Positions 9,145 to 57,303 of a DNA stretch of 64,000 bases are shown here, one piece after another. Position numbers and translations under genes: made by a program. Source of the DNA: Terriglobia bacterium (GTDB taxonomy: Bacteria > Acidobacteriota > Terriglobia > JAIQFV01); assembly GCA_028716525.1 (NCBI GenBank), contig JAQUPQ010000005.1, positions 62,001-126,000 on the forward strand. The letters are read 5' to 3'. The stretch's first letter is position 1. Every line of letters starts with the position of its first letter. Below the pieces are notes generated by a model. That model was not told the DNA's origin. It searched no databases and was given only the letters and a program-made list of their open reading frames with translations.

Positions 9145-10641
9145 TCATCCTTCTCTTTTATCGGTGTCCAGACCGTACTGCCGTAATTTTCTGTAGAGCG
9201 AGTCGCGCGAAATTTCAAGGATTTCTGCAGCTCGGGATTTGTTATTTCCCGATAAGTGCAGCGCCTGTTGAATGGCAAATTTTTCCACGCTTTCCATGCT
9301 CAACAAACTCACATCCGGCGCCGGTTTCAATCGAGTCTTGCTGAACGGCAACCTCTGCCCCGCTGATGCCGAGGTCATTTCAGAAGTGGGATCGGCCACG
9401 GCTCGAAGATCAGCAACAGAAAGAGCCGTTCGGTCCGGTGGGGCGGTGGCCATGGCGCTTTCCAAGGCGTTCACGAGTTGCCGGATATTGCCCGGAAAGG
9501 AATAGGAAAGACACCAATCCAGAACTGCCGGGTCCAGAGAGATCGTTCTCCCATACTTGGCATTGAAAAGCCGGAGATAATGTTCGAGCAGCGGGGCGAT
9601 GTCCTCTCGCCGTTCGCGCAGCGGAGGGAGCTCGATGGTGATGGCCGAAACCCTGTAAAAAAGGTCTTCGCGAAGGTGTTCCTGCCGGATGGAAGACAAG
9701 GAGCTATTGGAAGCAGAGATGGTCCGCACATTGACTCGGACGGAAGAAGGTCCGCCGATCGGCCGCACTTCCCCTTCCTGCAGCACCCGGAGGAGTTTGA
9801 CTTGAGCTTCTCGCGGAAGGTCTCCAATCTCGTCGAGAAGAATGGTTCCTCCATCCGCCGCTCGAAATAATCCGATGGTTTCCGACAGCGCTCCGGTGAA
9901 CGATCCTCGTTGATGGCCGAACAATTCACTTTCCACCAGATCCCGCGGAAGAGCGCCGCAGTTGACCGGAATGAAGGGTCCGCCGGATCTCTTGCCGGCG
10001 GCGTGAATTTCACGTGCCAGCATTTCTTTCCCCGTCCCGGTCTCTCCCAAAAGCAATACCGGGAGGTCGGAGAGAGCGGCGGCCCGGGCCCGGTCCACAA
10101 CACCTCGCATTCGCGGTGAACGGGCAATGATAGTCTTGAAGTTTTGTGGTGCCTCACCCGAAGTCGCGTCGGGAGACTGAAGTCTTGCCGCTTCGCGTTG
10201 GCGATGGAGATCCAGGACCTGAGCAATCTTTTTCAGGAGAAGATCTTTTTCAAAAGGCTTTATTAAAAAATCCTCCGCCCCTTTCTTCATCGCCTCCACA
10301 GCAATTTCAATGGTTCCGAAACCCGTCATCATGAGAACCGGGATGTCGGTGCGGAAACTGCGAATCTCCTCGAGAAGACTCAGACCATCCACCAAAGGCA
10401 TGATGAGATCGATCAGGGCAAGGCAGATGGAATCCGAGTTGTTGCTTTGCTTCAATACGGCCAGCGCTTCCGGTGCAGACGAGGCCATCTTGACTCGATA
10501 CTTCTGCGACAATAAAACATCGCCGAGTGTGGTCAGCAACTCCTGATCATCATCCACCACCAAAATGGCGCAGGAATCATTACAATGAGTGCTCACAATA
10601 CAATCCTCAATGCTGGATTTCCATTCATCGTGTTCATTCAC
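9145..10641 (-). CDS. NtrC-family sigma-54-dependent response regulator
   Basis: This 498-residue protein has a receiver domain (about 25-140; VVDDDQE acidic cluster, phospho-acceptor Asp in ALIDLIMP, Lys in LIKPF). A AAA+ domain follows (about 170-400), with Walker A GETGTGKE and the sigma-54 contact loop GSFTGA, a tolerated variant of GAFTGA. A Fis-type helix-turn-helix is at the end (SRAAEILEISRDSLYRKLR). It starts at GTG 10641 inside the last codons of the kinase gene (8-base overlap), so the two are co-transcribed. The nearest downstream genes are the cytochrome operon with its RpoN promoter, which is its probable target by inference. Confidence 0.95.
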   Translation of the reverse strand: MNEHDEWKSSIEDCIVSTHCNDSCAILVVDDDQELLTTLGDVLLSQKYRVKMASSAPEALAVLKQSNNSDSICLALIDLIMPLVDGLSLLEEIRSFRTDIPVLMMTGFGTIEIAVEAMKKGAEDFLIKPFEKDLLLKKIAQVLDLHRQREAARLQSPDATSGEAPQNFKTIIARSPRMRGVVDRARAAALSDLPVLLLGETGTGKEMLAREIHAAGKRSGGPFIPVNCGALPRDLVESELFGHQRGSFTGALSETIGLFRAADGGTILLDEIGDLPREAQVKLLRVLQEGEVRPIGGPSSVRVNVRTISASNSSLSSIRQEHLREDLFYRVSAITIELPPLRERREDIAPLLEHYLRLFNAKYGRTISLDPAVLDWCLSYSFPGNIRQLVNALESAMATAPPDRTALSVADLRAVADPTSEMTSASAGQRLPFSKTRLKPAPDVSLLSMESVEKFAIQQALHLSGNNKSRAAEILEISRDSLYRKLRQYGLDTDKREG

Positions 10642-12040
10642 ATAAGGGAAGACGCAACACCACGCAGGTACCGCGCCCGGAAGAAGGTGAATTAACCCAC
10701 GCCGGCGGGTATCGATTCTGGATGATCAGCGATCCGCCGTGTTCCTGGGCAATGGTGCGAGCCAAAGGAAGACCCAAACCGGTTCCCTGGCCCGGCGGCT
10801 TGGTCGTAAAGAACGGCTCAAAGAGGCGCGGCATATCGCTCTCCGAAATGCCACATCCGTCGTCTTCGATGGTGATCTCCACGCTCCGGGCCGAAGGCGC
10901 AGATGATGGTCCCTCCAAGGGCAAATCGTCGTGATTATTTCCGCCGTTGGATGCGAACCCCGCTCGAGCCCGTTGTCCATCTTCAGTCGGATAAGCGGTG
11001 ATCTCAATATTGCCGCCTTCGGAAATAGCATCGGCCCCGTTTACCAGGATTGCGGACAGAAGCGCTTCCAACTGACCCCGGTTCGCCATGACCCTTCGGC
11101 CCTGGGCTCCTTCCAGCCGCAAACCCAGCTTGGCACGCTTGATGGTCAAACGCGGGCGCAGAAAGTTGACAACGGATTCAATGAGTTGACTGATTTCCTC
11201 AGGCTTCTTTTGATCCGGGATGCGGCGGGAAAAGTGGAGCAGGCGTTGAACAAAATTTTGGCACGAATGTATTCCGGTCTCCAGGTGCTCAAGATCGGCC
11301 CGCCCTGTTTCCTTCTGGGAATTCTCCTTCAACATCTGAACGCGCAAAAGCATGGCCGCCAGGGGTGTATTCAAGTGGTGCGCAATGCCGGCCGCCATCT
11401 GCCCCATCGTCGCCAGCCGCTCCACTTCCACCATCTTGTCCCGAAGGGCAATCTTTTCCCGTATATCCCGCGCCACCTCCAGGACATGAACACGCCCGCT
11501 CACTTCATCGCTGAATGAAGATAAGCTGACGGAGACCCAGATGGGTTCACCCGCGCTATTCCACCGGAGCGTTTCAAGATCCAGGAGCCGCTGCTGGCGC
11601 ATGAGTTTGGCGACCCCTTTCAGGGCTTCGGCTCGCTGGCTTGCAGGAATCGTCGGGAGCGTTTGACCGATGACGGCCTCTTTCTGGAAGCCGAACAAAC
11701 GCTCGGCACTCAAATTCCACTCCACCACGATGAGCTGATCGTCATAAAGCACCACGGCATCCGGCGATCCTTCCAAAATGCCGCGATAACGCTCGCGTGA
11801 TCGGCGCAGTTCTTCCTCATGAAAGCGCCTCTCCCGCAGCACATACCACACCGCCCACGTGGCCAGCAGCAGCGAAGAGACAATCCCTCGGCTGAGATAT
11901 AGAAAATGGAGAGTGCGATAATCCAGCGATTGGAAAAAGCGGTTCTGGATCAGTTCCCACATCGCAAAAACAAAGGTCACGATGGTGATGCTGGAAAGGA
12001 CCAAAGTGGCCCAAAACCATTGTTGGTTTCGTCGTCGCAT
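10634..12040 (-). CDS. Membrane histidine kinase with PAS domain, partner of the NtrC-type regulator
   Basis: This 468-residue protein has two membrane helices (about 10-30 and 49-67) with only about 18 residues between them. It then has a PAS domain (about 80-195), a HisKA dimerisation helix with the phospho-acceptor in AGIAHHLNTPL, and an HATPase domain (N-box LVNGADAIS, EDDGCGIS, FFTTKPPGQGTGLGL). With so short an external loop, no periplasmic sensor domain is present. Sensing is likely through the membrane, for example quinone redox state, or the cytoplasmic PAS domain; this is inference. A low-complexity insert of about 25 residues precedes the EDDG motif. The start has GAGGACGG before the ATG. 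Confidence 0.94.
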   Translation of the reverse strand: MRRRNQQWFWATLVLSSITIVTFVFAMWELIQNRFFQSLDYRTLHFLYLSRGIVSSLLLATWAVWYVLRERRFHEEELRRSRERYRGILEGSPDAVVLYDDQLIVVEWNLSAERLFGFQKEAVIGQTLPTIPASQRAEALKGVAKLMRQQRLLDLETLRWNSAGEPIWVSVSLSSFSDEVSGRVHVLEVARDIREKIALRDKMVEVERLATMGQMAAGIAHHLNTPLAAMLLRVQMLKENSQKETGRADLEHLETGIHSCQNFVQRLLHFSRRIPDQKKPEEISQLIESVVNFLRPRLTIKRAKLGLRLEGAQGRRVMANRGQLEALLSAILVNGADAISEGGNIEITAYPTEDGQRARAGFASNGGNNHDDLPLEGPSSAPSARSVEITIEDDGCGISESDMPRLFEPFFTTKPPGQGTGLGLPLARTIAQEHGGSLIIQNRYPPAWVNSPSSGRGTCVVLRLPLCE

Positions 12041-12370
12041 CCGTCCTCACACTTCAGGAGGAAGATTTATGCACTCAACACAGATTTACCCTATGCAGAA
12101 AGCTAAAAAAACGCGGTGGGTCTCACAAACCAGCCAACGAGAATGATGGGAATGTATAAAATGTGGACTAAATAATTTGGATTGGAAACTTGCCTCTAGC
12201 GTCTGACGGCAGGAAGCAGCCTCCAGCTTCATTCCTGCCAAATAACCAAGCCATGATAGCAAAAGCGAATCGTTTGTTCAACTGGACCAAAATTCTGGAA
12301 CAGCCCTGGTTCATCGGATCCTCCGGTGAAGTTGACGTGTTCGAATATGCGAATCAAGAGGGAGATTCCA
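12041..12370. other. Intergenic region upstream of the kinase, no gene seen
   Basis: This stretch separates the kinase start from the repeat array. An open frame from 12190 runs into the 74-bp repeats and reads only palindrome-derived residues, so I reject it. I see no confident promoter for the kinase gene. Confidence 0.5.
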
Positions 12371-12690
12371 GTCCCGCTCTGCGGGACGCAAGATCTTTAG
12401 CCCAGAACGTGAGTCCTGGGATTCGTCCGCAAGCTGAAGACCGAGTCCCGCTCTGCGGGACGCAAGATCTTTAGCCCAGGACGTGAGTCCTGGGATTCGT
12501 CCGCAAGCTGAAGACCGAGTCCCGCTCCGCGGGACGACAGATCTTTAGCCCAGGACGTGAGTCCTGGGATTCGTCCGCAGGCTGAAGATCCAGTCCCGCT
12601 CCGCGGGACGCAAGATCTCTAGCCCAGGACGTGAGTCCTGGGATTCGTCCGCAAGCTGAAGACCGAGTCCCGCTCCGCGGGACGACAGAC
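12371..12690. repeat. 74-bp tandem palindromic (REP-like) array, 4.3 copies
   Basis: Copies begin at 12371, 12445, 12519 and 12593, with a partial copy at 12667; the period is exactly 74 bases. Each unit holds two hairpins: GTCCCGC-tct/ccg-GCGGGAC and CCCAGGAC-gtga-GTCCTGGG. The array abuts the 3' end of the REP-associated transposase gene. There are no unique spacers, so it is not a CRISPR. Confidence 0.93.
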
Positions 12691-12695
12691 GATTC

Positions 12696-13148
12696 CTAGT
12701 TCCACATCGACCGTTCGTCTAATGAAATTTGGTGTTTCATGAAGAGTTCCCTCATTTCTTCTCGGAACGTCTTTTTGCGATGATGAATCTCCTGGTTTGA
12801 AATGTATTTCGCCACCCGGGACACGTTGGACATGCTAACGCTGAATCCCGCGTAACCTTCCTGCCAGGCAAATTTCGTTGGTAGGTGCAAGGTTTCGTTG
12901 ACCCAGCGCGATGAATTGGCCTTCAGTTTTTGGATGGCCTCGGCCAGGGCCAAGGTGGGAGTCAATTGGATCAGTAAGTGAACGTGGTCGATCGTTCCGC
13001 CAATCGTGATCACCTTTCCATGTAATCTGCGAATGATGCCGCCCATGTAGGAATGAAGACGAGGACGGATGTCGGAGGGGATAAGCGGGATCCGATCTTT
13101 GGTGCTGAAGACAGCATGGGTTAAGAGATTGGTAAAGGAGTGAGACAT
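12696..13148 (-). CDS. REP-associated tyrosine transposase (RAYT, Y1 family)
   Basis: About 150 residues. The HUH motif appears as GTIDHVHLLIQL, and the single catalytic-tyrosine helix region is QEGYAGFSVSMSNV. The opening HAVFSTKDRIPLI and the spacing match IS200/RAYT Y1 transposases of about 150 residues. RAYTs cut and join single-stranded DNA at REP hairpins. The gene lies between two arrays of the same palindromes in opposite orientation, which supports the RAYT call over a mobile IS200. I chose ATG 13148; 21 further in-frame codons upstream carry no conserved sequence. It appears intact. Confidence 0.9.
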   Translation of the reverse strand: MSHSFTNLLTHAVFSTKDRIPLIPSDIRPRLHSYMGGIIRRLHGKVITIGGTIDHVHLLIQLTPTLALAEAIQKLKANSSRWVNETLHLPTKFAWQEGYAGFSVSMSNVSRVAKYISNQEIHHRKKTFREEMRELFMKHQISLDERSMWN

Positions 13149-13220
13149 GTGAGAATCGCTTTCCGGGGGTAGGTTGGAGGGGATATTAACGCCGTTTGAT
13201 CCGGCGGACAACCGTCTGTC

Positions 13221-13555
13221 GTCCCGCAGGGCGGGACTGATATCTCCCTCTTGATTCGCATACCCAGGACTTACGTCCTGGGCTAAAGATCTTTCGTCCG
13301 TCTACGACGGACTCCGCCGATCGAAATTAAACCGTCTGTCCTGCGACAAACCGCCGAAGCAGGAACGTTTAATCCGGCGTCCCGCAGAGCGGGACTGATA
13401 TCTCCCTTTTGATTCGCATACCCAGGACTTACGTCCTGGGCTAAAGATCTTTCGTCCGTCTACGACGGACTCCGCCGATCGAAATTAAACCGTCTGTCCT
13501 GCGACAAACCGCCGAAGCAGGAACGTTTAATCTGGCGTCCCGCAGAGCGGGACTG
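13221..13555. repeat. 158-bp direct repeat array of REP-like palindromes (2.1 copies)
   Basis: Units start at 13221 and 13379, and a third partial unit at 13537; the period is 158 bases. Each contains GTCCCGC-nnn-GCGGGAC and CCCAGGAC-ttac-GTCCTGGG. The module AGATCTTTAGCCCAGGAC of the left array occurs here in reverse complement, so the two arrays flank the transposase gene as inverted repeats. Downstream to 13650 there are two more unrelated hairpins (around 13590-13615 and 13629-13645). No gene is supported in 13557-13797. Confidence 0.9.
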
Positions 13556-13797
13556 GAGAAAATAACACCATTCGATATAGCAGAAAGGTTCCTGCTCTCC
13601 CGCCCCTGAAGGGGCGGGCTGAGGTAGGCAAGCCGCATAAATGCGGCTGGCGGATGGAAATTCTGCAGACTTGACTGGCGAGGCCGATATGATCGGTACA
13701 TGCGCGATGCACGGAGCGGAACTACCGTGCCCGTGCCACCCTCACGCCAGTCTCGCCAGCCCGGCATGCATAAGCCCACCGTTGAGTTGAAACAAGA

Positions 13798-15978
13798 TCA
13801 CTCGCCGGGATGGTAGGTTCGCTCCGTATGGCCTTGGAGTTGAGAGCGGTAGAAATAGACCTCTCGCAAGTCGCCGGTGCTGTACCGCTGGATTTCATCA
13901 TTGAAATGGGGGGACGCCGGATTGCCGCTTTCGCCGCCGGCCGTCACGGCCCTGGTGCGCACCCTCTTTCCAAATTCCACTGCGGCCACAAAGCTGTTTC
14001 CGCTAGTGCCGTACCATTTCTTGGTATTGGGGTACGGACGCGCTGCAAAAGAGGCCAAAGATCCCCACGCCGAATAAGTGAACTCCACGGGAGTGCTGGG
14101 TTGGCTGTCATCAAAGTGCGAAACGATGTCGTCATCGAGGCGCTGGAAACGGTTGATGTTTCCCCACGGTGTCTTCCAGGTTCCAAAATCCTTCGTTAGC
14201 CGATCCGAAGCCGCCTCCAGCGATTGCAGCAGCTGCGCGGCCGGCACCTTGGTGCCCACATAGTCGTAAATGGGAACGCCGGAATTGCGAGCCTCACGGG
14301 CGACGCGGCGGGTGATCTCTTCACCCCAAAATACAGCCAGCGATGTGGGGATGGAATTTACTCCCCATCGCAGGTTCCACTCCCGCAGAACTTTGATCTG
14401 CTCCGCTAACCCGGCTTTCAGCGGATCCGAGTCTGCCTCCTGATCCCAAGCTTTGATCAGCGCCGGCAGCGTCTTTTCAAACCAGGGAAGATAACTGTCG
14501 AAGGCCGCACTAATGAGTGAATTGACCGTGAAATCTTTCTTCTTATCGAAGACGCGCAAGGCGTGAAGGCCGCGCGCGGATTCTCCGCCGGTTTCCACAT
14601 AAATTGGAAAGTTCTCCTTCTTCAAACTTCCCGGACCGGCCGCGGACCACGGTGCGTCGTTGGAGTTGTAGATCCAACCGCTTGGTGGATTCAGCAGGTG
14701 CGGCGTCTCATCCAGTGTCAACAGTCCGTGCCAATCCGTTGCCGGATTGCTGCCATCGACCGGCTTGGTCCAATCGAATCTCGTGTCACGTCGCGGAATA
14801 AAATCGCCGTGGAAATAGGCAATGTCGCCATCGGCACTGGCGAAGATCGTGTTGTTGGATGAATTGGTATGCAGAGCCATCGTCTGCCGAAACGATTTGT
14901 AATTCGTGGCCTTGGTGCGCGTGAAATCCTGAATGAGCGCTTTGATGGGTTCCTGCATTAAGCGGATGGTGATCCACTTCCCCTCACGAGCCCCGATGAC
15001 AGGGCCGTGGGGGGTACGGTAAACAGTAAATGTTTTCTCAGCCATTCCGTGATCAGTCGTGTAAGGAACCTTGATTTCTTCGGTAATGACCGGGAGTTCC
15101 TTGCTTCCGTACTTATAAAAGTAACGGTTCCCTTTCTTCTCCACTGTTTCGAGGTACTGGCTTATGGCATTGACGCCGCTGGAAGTGTGCATCCAGCCGA
15201 TGCGGGGATTGAATCCTTGGTACACGAAAAATTGTCCCCAAGTAACGGCACCATAGGCATTCAATCCTTGATCACTAACCATCTGTAATTCCGACCGAAA
15301 ATAAAACGACGTGTGCGGATTGATCAACAGCAGAGCGTGATGGTCGACGGTGTTCGCGGGAGCGATCGCCACGCCGTTGGACCCGCCGGGGTCCAGTGTT
15401 TCGTCAACGCTTGATGAAATCGCCATAGCTGTTTGTGTTTTGCCATAAAAGGCCTCGAGTTGGGCGAGGTTCACGTGCTCGATATCGCCGCCGATGCTTC
15501 CTTCCGTAAAGCTCAGCGCCATCCAGGGTTCGAATTTCTTGATGACCTTGGGTTTCACTTCCGGATGCTTGTACAAGTAGTAGTTCAAGCCGTCGGCGAA
15601 GGCGTTCATCAGACTCTTCAACCACGCCGGGCTTTCGGCATATTGCTTTTTCAAGGTTTGCGGGTCGATGAACAGCTTCATTCGCAGGTCCTGGTAAATC
15701 TTGGACTCACCCTCCGACTCTGCCAGCCGTCCCATGCCATTGATGTAATTGGTTTCGACGCGATTGAAGTCGTCTTCAGCTTGGGCATATTCCATTCCGA
15801 ACACGGAGTCGGCATCGGTTTTTCCGTAGACGTGTGCAATCCCCCAATCATCTCGAACGAGGGTGACGGCACGGGCCTCACGTTCCCATCGTGAGACTTC
15901 CATGTTCTGGGCGCCTTGGATCGCCAGAGGAAAGCAAGCGACAACTAAAATGAAAAAGTATTTCTTCATGAGTATCAT
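13798..15978 (-). CDS. Penicillin acylase family (Ntn-hydrolase) protein
   Basis: A 726-residue secreted enzyme. The N-terminal signal peptide begins either at 15978 or at the ATG three codons in (15969, preceded by AGGATGATACTC). The alpha-chain opening VTLVRDDWGIAHVYGKTDADSVFG is followed by a linker. The likely autocatalytic Ser is in DPGGSNGVAIAPANT, the start of the beta chain, then LLINPHTSFY. Family members cleave amide bonds of penicillins, acyl-homoserine lactones or cyclic lipopeptides after self-processing in the periplasm; the substrate here cannot be told. It has no co-directional neighbour close enough to suggest an operon. Confidence 0.9.
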   Translation of the reverse strand: MILMKKYFFILVVACFPLAIQGAQNMEVSRWEREARAVTLVRDDWGIAHVYGKTDADSVFGMEYAQAEDDFNRVETNYINGMGRLAESEGESKIYQDLRMKLFIDPQTLKKQYAESPAWLKSLMNAFADGLNYYLYKHPEVKPKVIKKFEPWMALSFTEGSIGGDIEHVNLAQLEAFYGKTQTAMAISSSVDETLDPGGSNGVAIAPANTVDHHALLLINPHTSFYFRSELQMVSDQGLNAYGAVTWGQFFVYQGFNPRIGWMHTSSGVNAISQYLETVEKKGNRYFYKYGSKELPVITEEIKVPYTTDHGMAEKTFTVYRTPHGPVIGAREGKWITIRLMQEPIKALIQDFTRTKATNYKSFRQTMALHTNSSNNTIFASADGDIAYFHGDFIPRRDTRFDWTKPVDGSNPATDWHGLLTLDETPHLLNPPSGWIYNSNDAPWSAAGPGSLKKENFPIYVETGGESARGLHALRVFDKKKDFTVNSLISAAFDSYLPWFEKTLPALIKAWDQEADSDPLKAGLAEQIKVLREWNLRWGVNSIPTSLAVFWGEEITRRVAREARNSGVPIYDYVGTKVPAAQLLQSLEAASDRLTKDFGTWKTPWGNINRFQRLDDDIVSHFDDSQPSTPVEFTYSAWGSLASFAARPYPNTKKWYGTSGNSFVAAVEFGKRVRTRAVTAGGESGNPASPHFNDEIQRYSTGDLREVYFYRSQLQGHTERTYHPGE

Positions 15979-20868: not shown

Positions 20869-21762
20869 TTTCTCGGACTCCTTTTTGATTGAAATGAACA
20901 GCAAAAATTGTTCTTTTGGAAGCTCAGAAAATAAGGACAAAAAGCCTTCTCGCCTTGGTCTTGACCTCCGAGAGGTTTGATCACTTCTTCAGCCGCCGTG
21001 CTCCCAAGGGGCCCGACGAGCCAAAACATGCGCGTTAGTTTGAAGTGGGCGAAGCGTACCAAAAACGAGATTGAAAACAAAGCAAAAATTTGTCTTGGCA
21101 GAATTTACGCCCTGGTGCCAAAGATCCCCATCCTCTGGATGATTACCATGAATATCGTATTCAATCTCCTAATACGCCTAGGGGCTGTTTTTGGATTTGA
21201 ATACAGGGTGTTTAGTTGAGGGGAGATTCGGGGATCGATCTGGAATTTAAATCTAAGCGCTGAAAATACAGGGGTTAGCCACAGGAGCTGGTGTGTAGTG
21301 TCATTTCAAGCTGTATTATAATCTGGCACATCCGGAAGTTGTGGGTGTAGCAAGCGTGTGACGCGATAAGCTTGCGGTCTGCCACAAAAGGGAAAACAAG
21401 CGAAATATGAAACCCCGAACTTTACGGTAGTGATTCAATTTAAGGCGTTTCCGTCCTTCCTATTCTTAGCCGGCAGGGACTGGGTGTCATAGTGGATAAG
21501 TTCCGGAGTTGCCGGCCTTGTTGCAAGCACGATTCATCGAGCTGAAATAATTGTAGCCCCGCAGGGCGGGGCTACGGTTACTCCGTCCGCACAAGGCGGA
21601 CTGGCTTTAGGCGAAGGGCTGAATGCGGACTCTTCTACCTCTTGAACGAGGTACTCAATTTTCGGAAGTGCTCGATCTATTAGCGCACTAAAACGGAAGC
21701 GCCCTTAATCTAATAGTGCCCTTGTGCCGTGACTTCCGATGCCGAGGAAAGTCTTCGCATTC
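20869..21762. other. Long intergenic region upstream of bufA
   Basis: Almost 900 bases without a supported gene. At 21550-21600 there are two hairpins, TAGCCCCGC-ag-GGCGGGGCTA type and GTCCGC-acaag-GCGGAC, another REP-like unit. The near-upstream 150 bases should contain the bufferin promoter; I find no clear binding site. Open frames here (for example 20977-21219) show no protein features. Confidence 0.5.
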
Positions 21763-40478: not shown

Positions 40479-40524
40479 ACCGCATTTCTTTAGGTCATCG
40501 GTTTTCAAATCACGCAATCGCGCA
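40479..40524 (-). repeat. Right arm of the 46-bp inverted repeat
   Basis: Reverse complement of 39363-39408. The rest of 40315-40653 consists of AT-rich variations on gcgcaat/aaatcgcg words and holds no gene. Confidence 0.85.
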
Positions 40525-40653
40525 TTCTCAAATCACAAATGTTTTTATTTCGCGCAATATCCAAATATCCAAATGATTTTAATTCGCCTAATCTCAAATC
40601 ATCAAATGCCTTTCCTCTGGTATGATGGCGCGCTTGGATGTTTGGAGGTCTAC

Positions 40654-57101: not shown

Positions 57102-57147
57102 CAATGCAGAAGGACAACAGGCGATGGAATGACCGTGTGGATATTTA

Positions 57148-57303
57148 AATTCCAAGCTCCAAGCACCAAAATCCAAATAAATTCCAATCATCAAAGTCCA
57201 CAATCCAGGATTTGTCTTGAAGGGCAACTGCGTCCAAAGTGTTTTTTGTTTGGAATCTGGAATTTGGAGCCTATTTGGATTTTGGTGCTTGGAGCTTGGA
57301 ATT
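57148..57303. repeat. Long inverted repeat of the 'tccaagctccaagcacc' word family
   Basis: The left arm (about 57148-57180: AATTCCAAGCTCCAAGCACC and onward) is nearly the reverse complement of the right arm (about 57270-57303). Together they would form a long imperfect hairpin in the intergenic region before hsp20. Related words occur at 51640-51700. Confidence 0.8.

Follow-up and report, generated by a model that had tools for sequence, protein, structure and literature searches.

Organization of the locus

Which kind of element is formed by a Y1 transposase-like gene that lies between two tandem arrays of hairpins? The initial annotation of this locus had proposed a RAYT gene between inverted arrays of its own REP-like hairpins. 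In the window (the whole stretch of DNA that was analysed, 64,000 nt), TRF recovered the two arrays with the periods and copy numbers reported there (Table 1). They are inverted about the Y1 gene and both point at it. The shared 18-mer AGATCTTTAGCCCAGGAC had six matches in the window when three mismatches were allowed, all of them with none or one. Four are located on the plus strand in the left array and two on the minus strand in the right array (0.02 expected), which bears out a common module in opposite orientation. The sequence GTCCCGCnnnGCGGGAC occurs in eight exact copies in the window, every one inside the two arrays, and a ninth match with two mismatches is located at 21556.

Comparison of the hairpin list with the dispersed copies described below defined a composite repeat unit. 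It consists of a hairpin H7 (7-bp stem, short loop), a linker ending in TAG (GNNAGATCTTTAG), a hairpin H8 (8-bp stem, 4-nt loop), a spacer of 23-25 nt and another hairpin, H7'. Units of the left array share their H7 hairpins, the H7' of one unit being the H7 of the next; the array contains five H7 and four H8 hairpins, one H8 being imperfect. Its period of 74 equals 17 + 13 + 20 + 24 because H7' doubles as the next H7. The period of 158 on the right results from two complete 92-nt units (H7-linker-H8-25-nt spacer-H7'), each with approximately 66 nt of filler, and this array also holds a terminal hairpin beyond the two complete units. The three hairpins formed when two parts of the left array were folded as single-stranded DNA (z = -3.8 and -4.7).

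A relic spacer to the left of the left array is an inverted match of the spacer in the right-hand units. As judged from the sequence, the two flanking units probably once had a common spacer, and the present left array, with its different spacer, would have arisen later than the relic. Independent tandem growth of the two arrays, as initially suggested, is plausible because they differ in spacer and period; slippage and enzyme action are indistinguishable as its cause here.

A second, different hairpin pair (13599-13648) adjoins the right array and reads CCCGCCCC-TGAA-GGGGCGGG, then AGCCGCATAAATGCGGCT. Its part 13599-13638 scored 22.3 bits against the Rfam model RF01687, under the cut-off. By eye, a stretch at locus L027 (contig C73) resembles this pair, perhaps as another dispersed repeat. 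Elsewhere in the window, TRF reported two short tandem repeats (40518-40608, period 34, and 57146-57207, period 32).

Table 1 Features of the locus, in window positions
Feature	Position	Strand	Basis
Left array, 74-bp period, 4.3 copies, 94% matches	12370-12684	+	TRF
Right array, 158-bp period, 2.1 copies, 98% matches	13220-13555	-	TRF
Relic spacer left of the array	12346-12369	+	Inverted repeats I1/I2, 90% over 49 and 48 nt
First H7, GTCCCGC-TCT-GCGGGAC	12371-12387	+	Hairpin list
Further left H7 copies	12445-12461, 12519-12535, 12593-12609, 12667-12683	+	Hairpin list
Imperfect left H8 copy	12401-12420	+	Hairpin list
Left H8, CCCAGGAC-GTGA-GTCCTGGG, TTAG on the 5' side	12475-12494	+	Hairpin list
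Further left H8 copies	12549-12568, 12623-12642 (tag CTAG)	+	Hairpin list
TnpA_Y1 subclass 1.2 gene, 150 aa + stop	12696-13148	-	PF01797, motifs
Right gene-proximal H7'	13221-13237, 13379-13395, 13537-13553	-	Hairpin list
Right H8, loop GTAA on the minus strand	13263-13282, second copy 13421-13440	-	Hairpin list
Right outer H7, GTCCGTC-GTA-GACGGAC on the minus strand	13296-13312, second copy 13454-13470	-	Hairpin list
RF01687 matches, left array	12518-12568 (39.9 bits), 12444-12494 (38.8 bits), 12592-12642 (37.2 bits)	-	Over cut-off
RF01687 match, left array	12370-12420 (34.7 bits)	-	Under cut-off (37)
RF01687 matches, right array	13263-13290, 13421-13448 (30 bits each)	+	Under cut-off

The enzyme

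The ORF between the arrays, readable from a TTG at 13211, matches PF01797 (Y1_Tnp) with an E value of 2.2e-24. In an alignment of 70 sequences including the window protein, the ATG at 13148 was favoured as start over this TTG, and the resulting 150-aa gene matches with 1.4e-24. The protein carries the motifs DHVH (His55, His57), Trp95-Gln96 (WQ), Tyr115 and YISNQEIHH. Trp95 is invariant and Gln96 present in at least 90% of the 70 aligned sequences. On its motifs (DH[IV]H, WQ and Y---Q--HH), the window protein is a TnpA_Y1 of subclass 1.2. A genome scan found 205 relatives, and 77 of the best 80 share Y...Q..HH. Those without it are L122, L152 and L154, of which L122 and L154 are apparent short fragments; L079, also among the best 80 of 205, has no [DN]H.H match.

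RAYTs are defined by an NP motif next to the catalytic tyrosine, according to the accessible text of Nunvar 2010 (PMC2817692). In the window protein, the motif NP(L/V)(R/K)xG is absent beside this tyrosine, where the sequence reads YISNQEIHH. The protein scores 22.7 with the NCBIfam model REP_Tyr_transpos (NF047646, cut-off 80) and 70.5 with the IS200 equivalog (NF033573, cut-off 55), hence failing the former and passing the latter. The canonical RAYT label was dropped on the missing NP motif and the low REP_Tyr_transpos score. Of the initial annotation, the Y1 transposase-like gene between inverted arrays is retained.

The AlphaFold2 model of the protein (pLDDT 94.8, pTM 0.88) has a predicted fold whose nearest Foldseek matches are the TnpA proteins of ISDra2 (E 4e-9) and IS608 (E 9e-9); TnpA_REP (4er8) was also returned (E 1e-5). 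A sequence profile found eight transposase sequences with solved structures at E < 1e-10, ISDra2 and IS608 included. The host genome contains ten PF01797 genes, compared with a mean of 1.7 in the subclass table (Quentin 2018). The nearest paralogue is 73-76% identical to the window protein, the other five aligned paralogues 38-46%. No tnpB was found among the five neighbouring proteins tested. The paralogue L012 (C3:86155-86640) contains one in-frame TAA, yet has units on both sides. On one side of the window locus lie genes for a PAS histidine kinase and a sigma-54-type response regulator (9145-12040, minus strand), on the other side a gene for a member of the penicillin-amidase family (13798-15978, minus strand); no tie of these neighbours to the repeat was found.

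Affiliation with Acido-Lenti-1 and dispersed copies in the host genome

Three of the six window units exceed the gathering cut-off (37 bits) of the Rfam family RF01687 (Acido-Lenti-1), a model of 46 positions filed under the type sRNA. The accessible text of Weinberg 2010 (PMC2864571) rates the family as probably RNA, non-cis-regulatory, and occurring in Acidobacteria and Lentisphaerae. The H8 hairpin of the window repeat is also that of RF01687, where the TAG tag appears as its complement. The repeat described here differs from the Rfam family in its length of approximately 92-100 nt, in a third hairpin (H7') and in its association with a Y1 enzyme. RF01687 is also listed in PMC10059132, and a paper of June 2026 (PMC13298647) describes its function as little known and suggests regulation of neighbouring genes, in the portions of both that were accessible. 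In the accessible literature on RF01687, which comprised few subscription papers, we found no link to a transposase, and such a link may thus exist in print.

The host genome has at least 79 matches to RF01687 at E <= 1e-3, 23 of them over the gathering score; the number is a lower bound, as the census scored 150 of 906 candidates. None of 14 control genomes was positive. The hairpin H7', which lies outside the Rfam model, starts 18-32 nt past H8 in 71 of the 78 matches that extend far enough (shuffled sequences: mean 2.3, maximum 5), and a looser rule found it in 76 of 79. The spacer between H8 and H7' measures 23 or 24 nt in 44 of these 71. With ORFs defined by length rather than by a gene finder, 77 of the 79 matches are located outside ORFs of at least 170 aa, a compartment that makes up 42% of the same sequence. 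A cut-off of 150 aa leaves 74 outside. The matches inside ORFs accordingly number two at 170 aa, five at 150 aa and 27 at 90 aa, the last mostly in ORFs shorter than 170 aa.

Forty-nine of the 79 matches are isolated, with no other match within 300 nt. Neighbouring pairs number 19, of which three are inverted and 16 run in the same direction, 11 of the 16 at the enzyme loci of C5, C19 and C37. The commonest stems of the 58 matches more than 1.5 kb away from an enzyme gene were CCCAGGGC (13 matches), CCCGGCAC (10), CCTGAGGC (10), CCCGGGGC (9) and CCCGGAGC (5). Three of these five flank enzyme genes of the host, namely CCCGGCAC at C19, CCTGAGGC at C37 and CCCGGAGC at C64. The exact H8 stem of the window, CCCAGGAC, is absent among the 58 dispersed matches and confined to its locus, and the exact hairpin CCCAGGACnTnnGTCCTGGG has no second place in the host genome. 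The initial annotation had called the hairpins the gene's own and named their absence from the rest of the genome as evidence against its reading. Related hairpins of the module family are dispersed in at least 79 RF01687 matches, whereas the exact sequences are restricted to the locus.

The 13 matches with stem CCCAGGGC (e.g. C1:200931, C5:50732 and C49:16806), many with TGCCCC/TTGCCC flanking hairpins, resemble a separate subfamily; this stem was not present in those enzyme flanks of the host genome that were read.

Units beside related enzyme genes

Among the enzyme loci of named genomes (best 80 of 205), RF01687 was found at gathering score in 11 of 80, with 17 matches. All 17 lie within approximately 450 nt of the enzyme gene and 13 within approximately 200 nt; of the latter, the seven upstream are all on the minus and the six downstream all on the plus strand (distances taken by hand). 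Perfect H8 hairpins cluster in the first 200 nt on each side of the gene (11 of 76 and 13 of 78 loci); past 600 nt, each 200-nt bin holds such hairpins at 0-2 loci. The 27 H8 hairpins within 250 nt of the gene belong to 18 of the 80 loci, and in 18 of the 27, H7 and H7' are both present (shuffled sequences: mean 0.05, maximum 1). None of the 18 perfect H8-like hairpins farther than 250 nt from the gene has a 5' H7, and five have an H7'-like hairpin.

A set of 58 genes was searched for units, defined as a perfect H8 within 300 nt of the gene, accompanied at the proper distance by H7 or H7'. It comprised eight of the ten host Y1 genes (C83 and C6 were left out), 15 genes of relatives and 35 loci out of the 80 named ones, picked as mostly non-Bacteroidetes. 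Units were present at 28 of the 58 genes, on both sides at 20; under this perfect-H8 descriptor, 30 genes had none. The H8 stems were identical on both sides in 18 of the 20 (mean distance 0.1, permuted 2.6, permutation p 1e-4). The tag NTAG precedes H8 on the 5' side in 40 of 48 units and has the form GTAG in 19 of the 48. Enzyme distance and stem distance were correlated (Mantel r 0.34, p 0.002, without phylogenetic correction).

A comparison of the two flanks that uses no hairpin rule gave matches at far more loci than this descriptor. An inverted repeat of at least 12 nt between the two 250-nt flanks was present at 46 of 71 loci, nine of the 80 having been dropped for short flanks; further out, the counts were 1 of 62, 1 of 59 and 1 of 56. 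By group, 33 of 39 non-Bacteroidetes loci and 13 of 32 loci of the Bacteroidetes group (Ignavibacteriaceae, Calditrichaceae and Balneolia included) had such repeats. Subclass 1.2 loci with REP-like units are also found in records of Planctomycetota, Verrucomicrobia, Acidobacteria and Parachlamydiaceae. At L086, from a metagenome-assembled genome of Parachlamydiaceae, inverted units with the stem CCCCGGAT are located on both sides of the gene.

Co-occurrence and presence/absence of units

Across 199 genomes of the phylum, RF01687 was detected in 50 and a subclass 1.2 gene (E <= 1e-20) in 44. Both were present in 38, the enzyme only in six, the repeat only in 12 of the 50 positive genomes, and neither in 143 (odds ratio 75, Fisher p 5e-24, without phylogenetic correction); at most approximately 29 repeat candidates were scored per genome. 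Among the listed genomes of family f9, the repeat was present in all eight with the gene and in four of 11 without it (p 0.013). In 41 relatives searched with the window protein (E <= 1e-3), 18 had both, two the gene only, eight the repeat only and 13 neither. Three of these eight (G017, G025 and G033) lack PF01797 at E <= 1e-3; G025 is 99% complete and holds 28 RF01687 matches, yet is without PF01797. G017, the sole species of genus g9 without a Y1 gene, has eight RF01687 matches, compared with 51-75 in its gene-bearing congeners (G009, G031 and G038). Its low count would fit a decay of copies following enzyme loss.

Two sites in one trio of genus g22 differ in the presence of units. In G025, a single unit (C12:172061; RF01687, 53 bits) is located between two genes, and no unit was found at the syntenic place in G032 and G039. 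The unaligned gap at this site measures 109 and 113 nt in the latter two genomes versus 172 and 174 nt in G025, being approximately 60 nt shorter, and is too diverged for exact ends. The second site separates two ATP synthase genes assigned by Pfam, the gamma gene and its neighbour; here the gap is 277-283 nt in G025 versus 12 and 23 nt in G032 and G039. The 254-271 extra nucleotides of G025 form a clean insert that contains one GTAG-H8-H7' unit by the descriptor, without outer H7, and a second, imperfect one by eye; both score far under 37 bits with RF01687 (16 and 18.8 bits). On sequence comparison, the two sites lend weak support to mobility.

A candidate empty site in genus g9 (L058, L170) was rejected. 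The L170 region is approximately 500 nt shorter in G038, but G017 carries other hairpins there, and insertion and deletion are indistinguishable.

Interpretation of the locus

We consider it quite probable that the locus represents a kind of REPtron for which we found no description: a gene for a TnpA_Y1 of subclass 1.2 between inverted composite REP units (H7-linker-NTAG-H8-spacer-H7') of the Acido-Lenti-1 family, operating by the TnpA mechanism proposed below. This interpretation draws on the architecture, the dispersal of the units and their placement outside long ORFs, the matching stems on both sides of the gene, the tag, the co-occurrence with the enzyme and the presence/absence at two sites. 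Counter-evidence comes from the 12 of 50 repeat-bearing genomes without a subclass 1.2 gene, among the relatives from G017, G025 and G033, which carry the repeat but no PF01797 match, from the 30 of 58 genes at which the descriptor found no unit, and from the exact H8 stem of the window, which is not dispersed. The type of REPtron is probably new, and RF01687 likely represents DNA hairpins that were catalogued as RNA.

Acido-Lenti-1 might instead be a true small RNA or terminator-like family, with the TnpA genes as mere neighbours or landing on its hairpins. The rating as probable RNA by Weinberg 2010 and the Rfam filing as sRNA speak for this possibility, as does the presence of RF01687 in genomes without the enzyme. 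Gaps between convergent genes also contain more matches than those between divergent genes (19 vs 5, p 0.007 with ORFs of at least 170 aa; 12 vs 4, p 0.08 with 150 aa), as expected for terminators, but REPs behave likewise. An sRNA family is difficult to reconcile with the unbiased orientation relative to co-directional genes (same/opposite 14/18 at 170 aa, 20/27 at 150 aa), with inverted pairs of the same stem on both sides of one enzyme class and with the presence/absence at syntenic sites, and we regard it as unlikely. Even less credit is given to an ordinary insertion sequence of the IS200/IS605 kind whose ends were amplified in tandem, which appears very improbable despite the passed IS200 equivalog model and the predicted fold, nearest to those of the ISDra2 and IS608 TnpA proteins. 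The paralogues have diverged (76%, then 38-46%), whereas copies of an insertion sequence are near-identical; it was on this divergence that the explanation was set aside. The lack of tnpB among the five neighbouring proteins tested, WQ in place of W[TS], the Y...Q..HH pattern and the inverted flanks also argue against it.

An explanation that concerns the arrays only, and is compatible with a REPtron, is their growth by replication slippage or unequal recombination between H7 hairpins, the enzyme being uninvolved. In its favour, the copies within an array are 94-98% alike and have H7 in common at both ends. Against it stand the concentration of same-orientation pairs within 300 nt at three enzyme loci (11 of 16) and the isolation of most matches (49 of 79), and the left-array spacer differs from the relic spacer, by which a new unit would apparently have been added before amplification. 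We give this origin of the arrays slightly less than an even chance.

Comparison with known systems

As far as the accessible parts of the sources describe them, REPtrons (RAYT/TnpA_REP with GTAG REPs; Nunvar 2010, PMC2817692; Quentin 2018, PMC6006769) resemble the present system in the HUH/Y1 gene flanked by inverted hairpins, the dispersed intergenic copies, the tag 5' of the hairpin and the enzyme-specific stems. Unlike a canonical RAYT, the present enzyme shows the motifs of subclass 1.2 and no NP motif. Its REP is a composite of three hairpins, and NTAG takes the place of GTAG as the tag, reading TTAG or CTAG in the window. Moreover, the matches of the host genome are mostly isolated, with three inverted neighbouring pairs, whereas relatives such as G008 and G019 show inverted pairs.

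The accessible text of Quentin 2018 tabulates subclass 1.2 with REP 'no' and for Cyanobacteria and Bacteroidetes. The present enzymes agree with this subclass in DH[IV]H, WQ, Y---Q--HH, a length of approximately 150 aa, low copy number and divergent copies, but differ from the tabulated lack of REPs by their REP-like units and inverted flank repeats (28 of 58 genes and 46 of 71 loci, respectively). Class 3 TnpA_Y1 with CnGA-foot hairpins, in the same portion of that source, is similar in its occurrence in Planctomycetes and Acidobacteria and in its atypical dispersed hairpins (approximately 600 copies in Solibacter usitatus). Its Y motif is Y----Q versus Y---Q--HH here. Di Nocera 2013 (PMC3733652) reported GTAG repeats from the PVC superphylum, GTAG-tagged hairpins that occur in Planctomycetes, Verrucomicrobia and Chlamydiales, with many in Opitutus terrae. 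The accessible text presents them as single tagged palindromes, unlike the composite units here. The TnpA proteins of IS608 and ISDra2 (subclass 1.1) share the predicted fold and catalytic core with the window enzyme, but belong to single-strand insertion sequences with near-identical copies and a W[TS] motif, whereas the window enzyme has WQ and a nearest copy at 73-76% identity.

Proposed mechanism and implications

By analogy with TnpA_REP, a dimer of the subclass 1.2 TnpA would recognize the hairpins on single-stranded DNA. The NTAG 5' of H8 may serve as recognition tag and guide, like GTAG in canonical REPs, and Trp95 and Gln96 may help to read it; for TnpA_REP, the accessible text of PMC8266576 reports that GTAG plays a part in recognition and, for one member, in where cleavage takes place. 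Tyr115 would cut beside the hairpins, and strand transfer could move or copy units to other intergenic sites. Transfer next to a unit's own end might give rise to tandem arrays.

A broader reading is tentative, and we hold it with somewhat less than even confidence: Acido-Lenti-1 would be the DNA substrate of a widespread REPtron class based on TnpA_Y1 subclass 1.2, not a family of sRNA genes, and the three-hairpin unit of approximately 92-100 nt would itself move as a minimal single-strand element, in which H7 and H7' form the ends and NTAG-H8 the centre of recognition. Earlier reports may already include some of these repeats under other names (GTAG repeats, class 3 atypical REPs), and some RF01687 copies may give a functional transcript.

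The REPtron reading joins two open entries, an Rfam 'sRNA' without known function and an enzyme subclass tabulated as free of REPs. If it is right, the features annotated as RF01687 would be mobile repeats of DNA and not genes for RNA, and the REP/RAYT model would take in a separate branch of Y1 enzymes, one whose hairpin unit is composite. Hairpin recognition by these enzymes could readily be tested on each pair of a gene and its matching stem.
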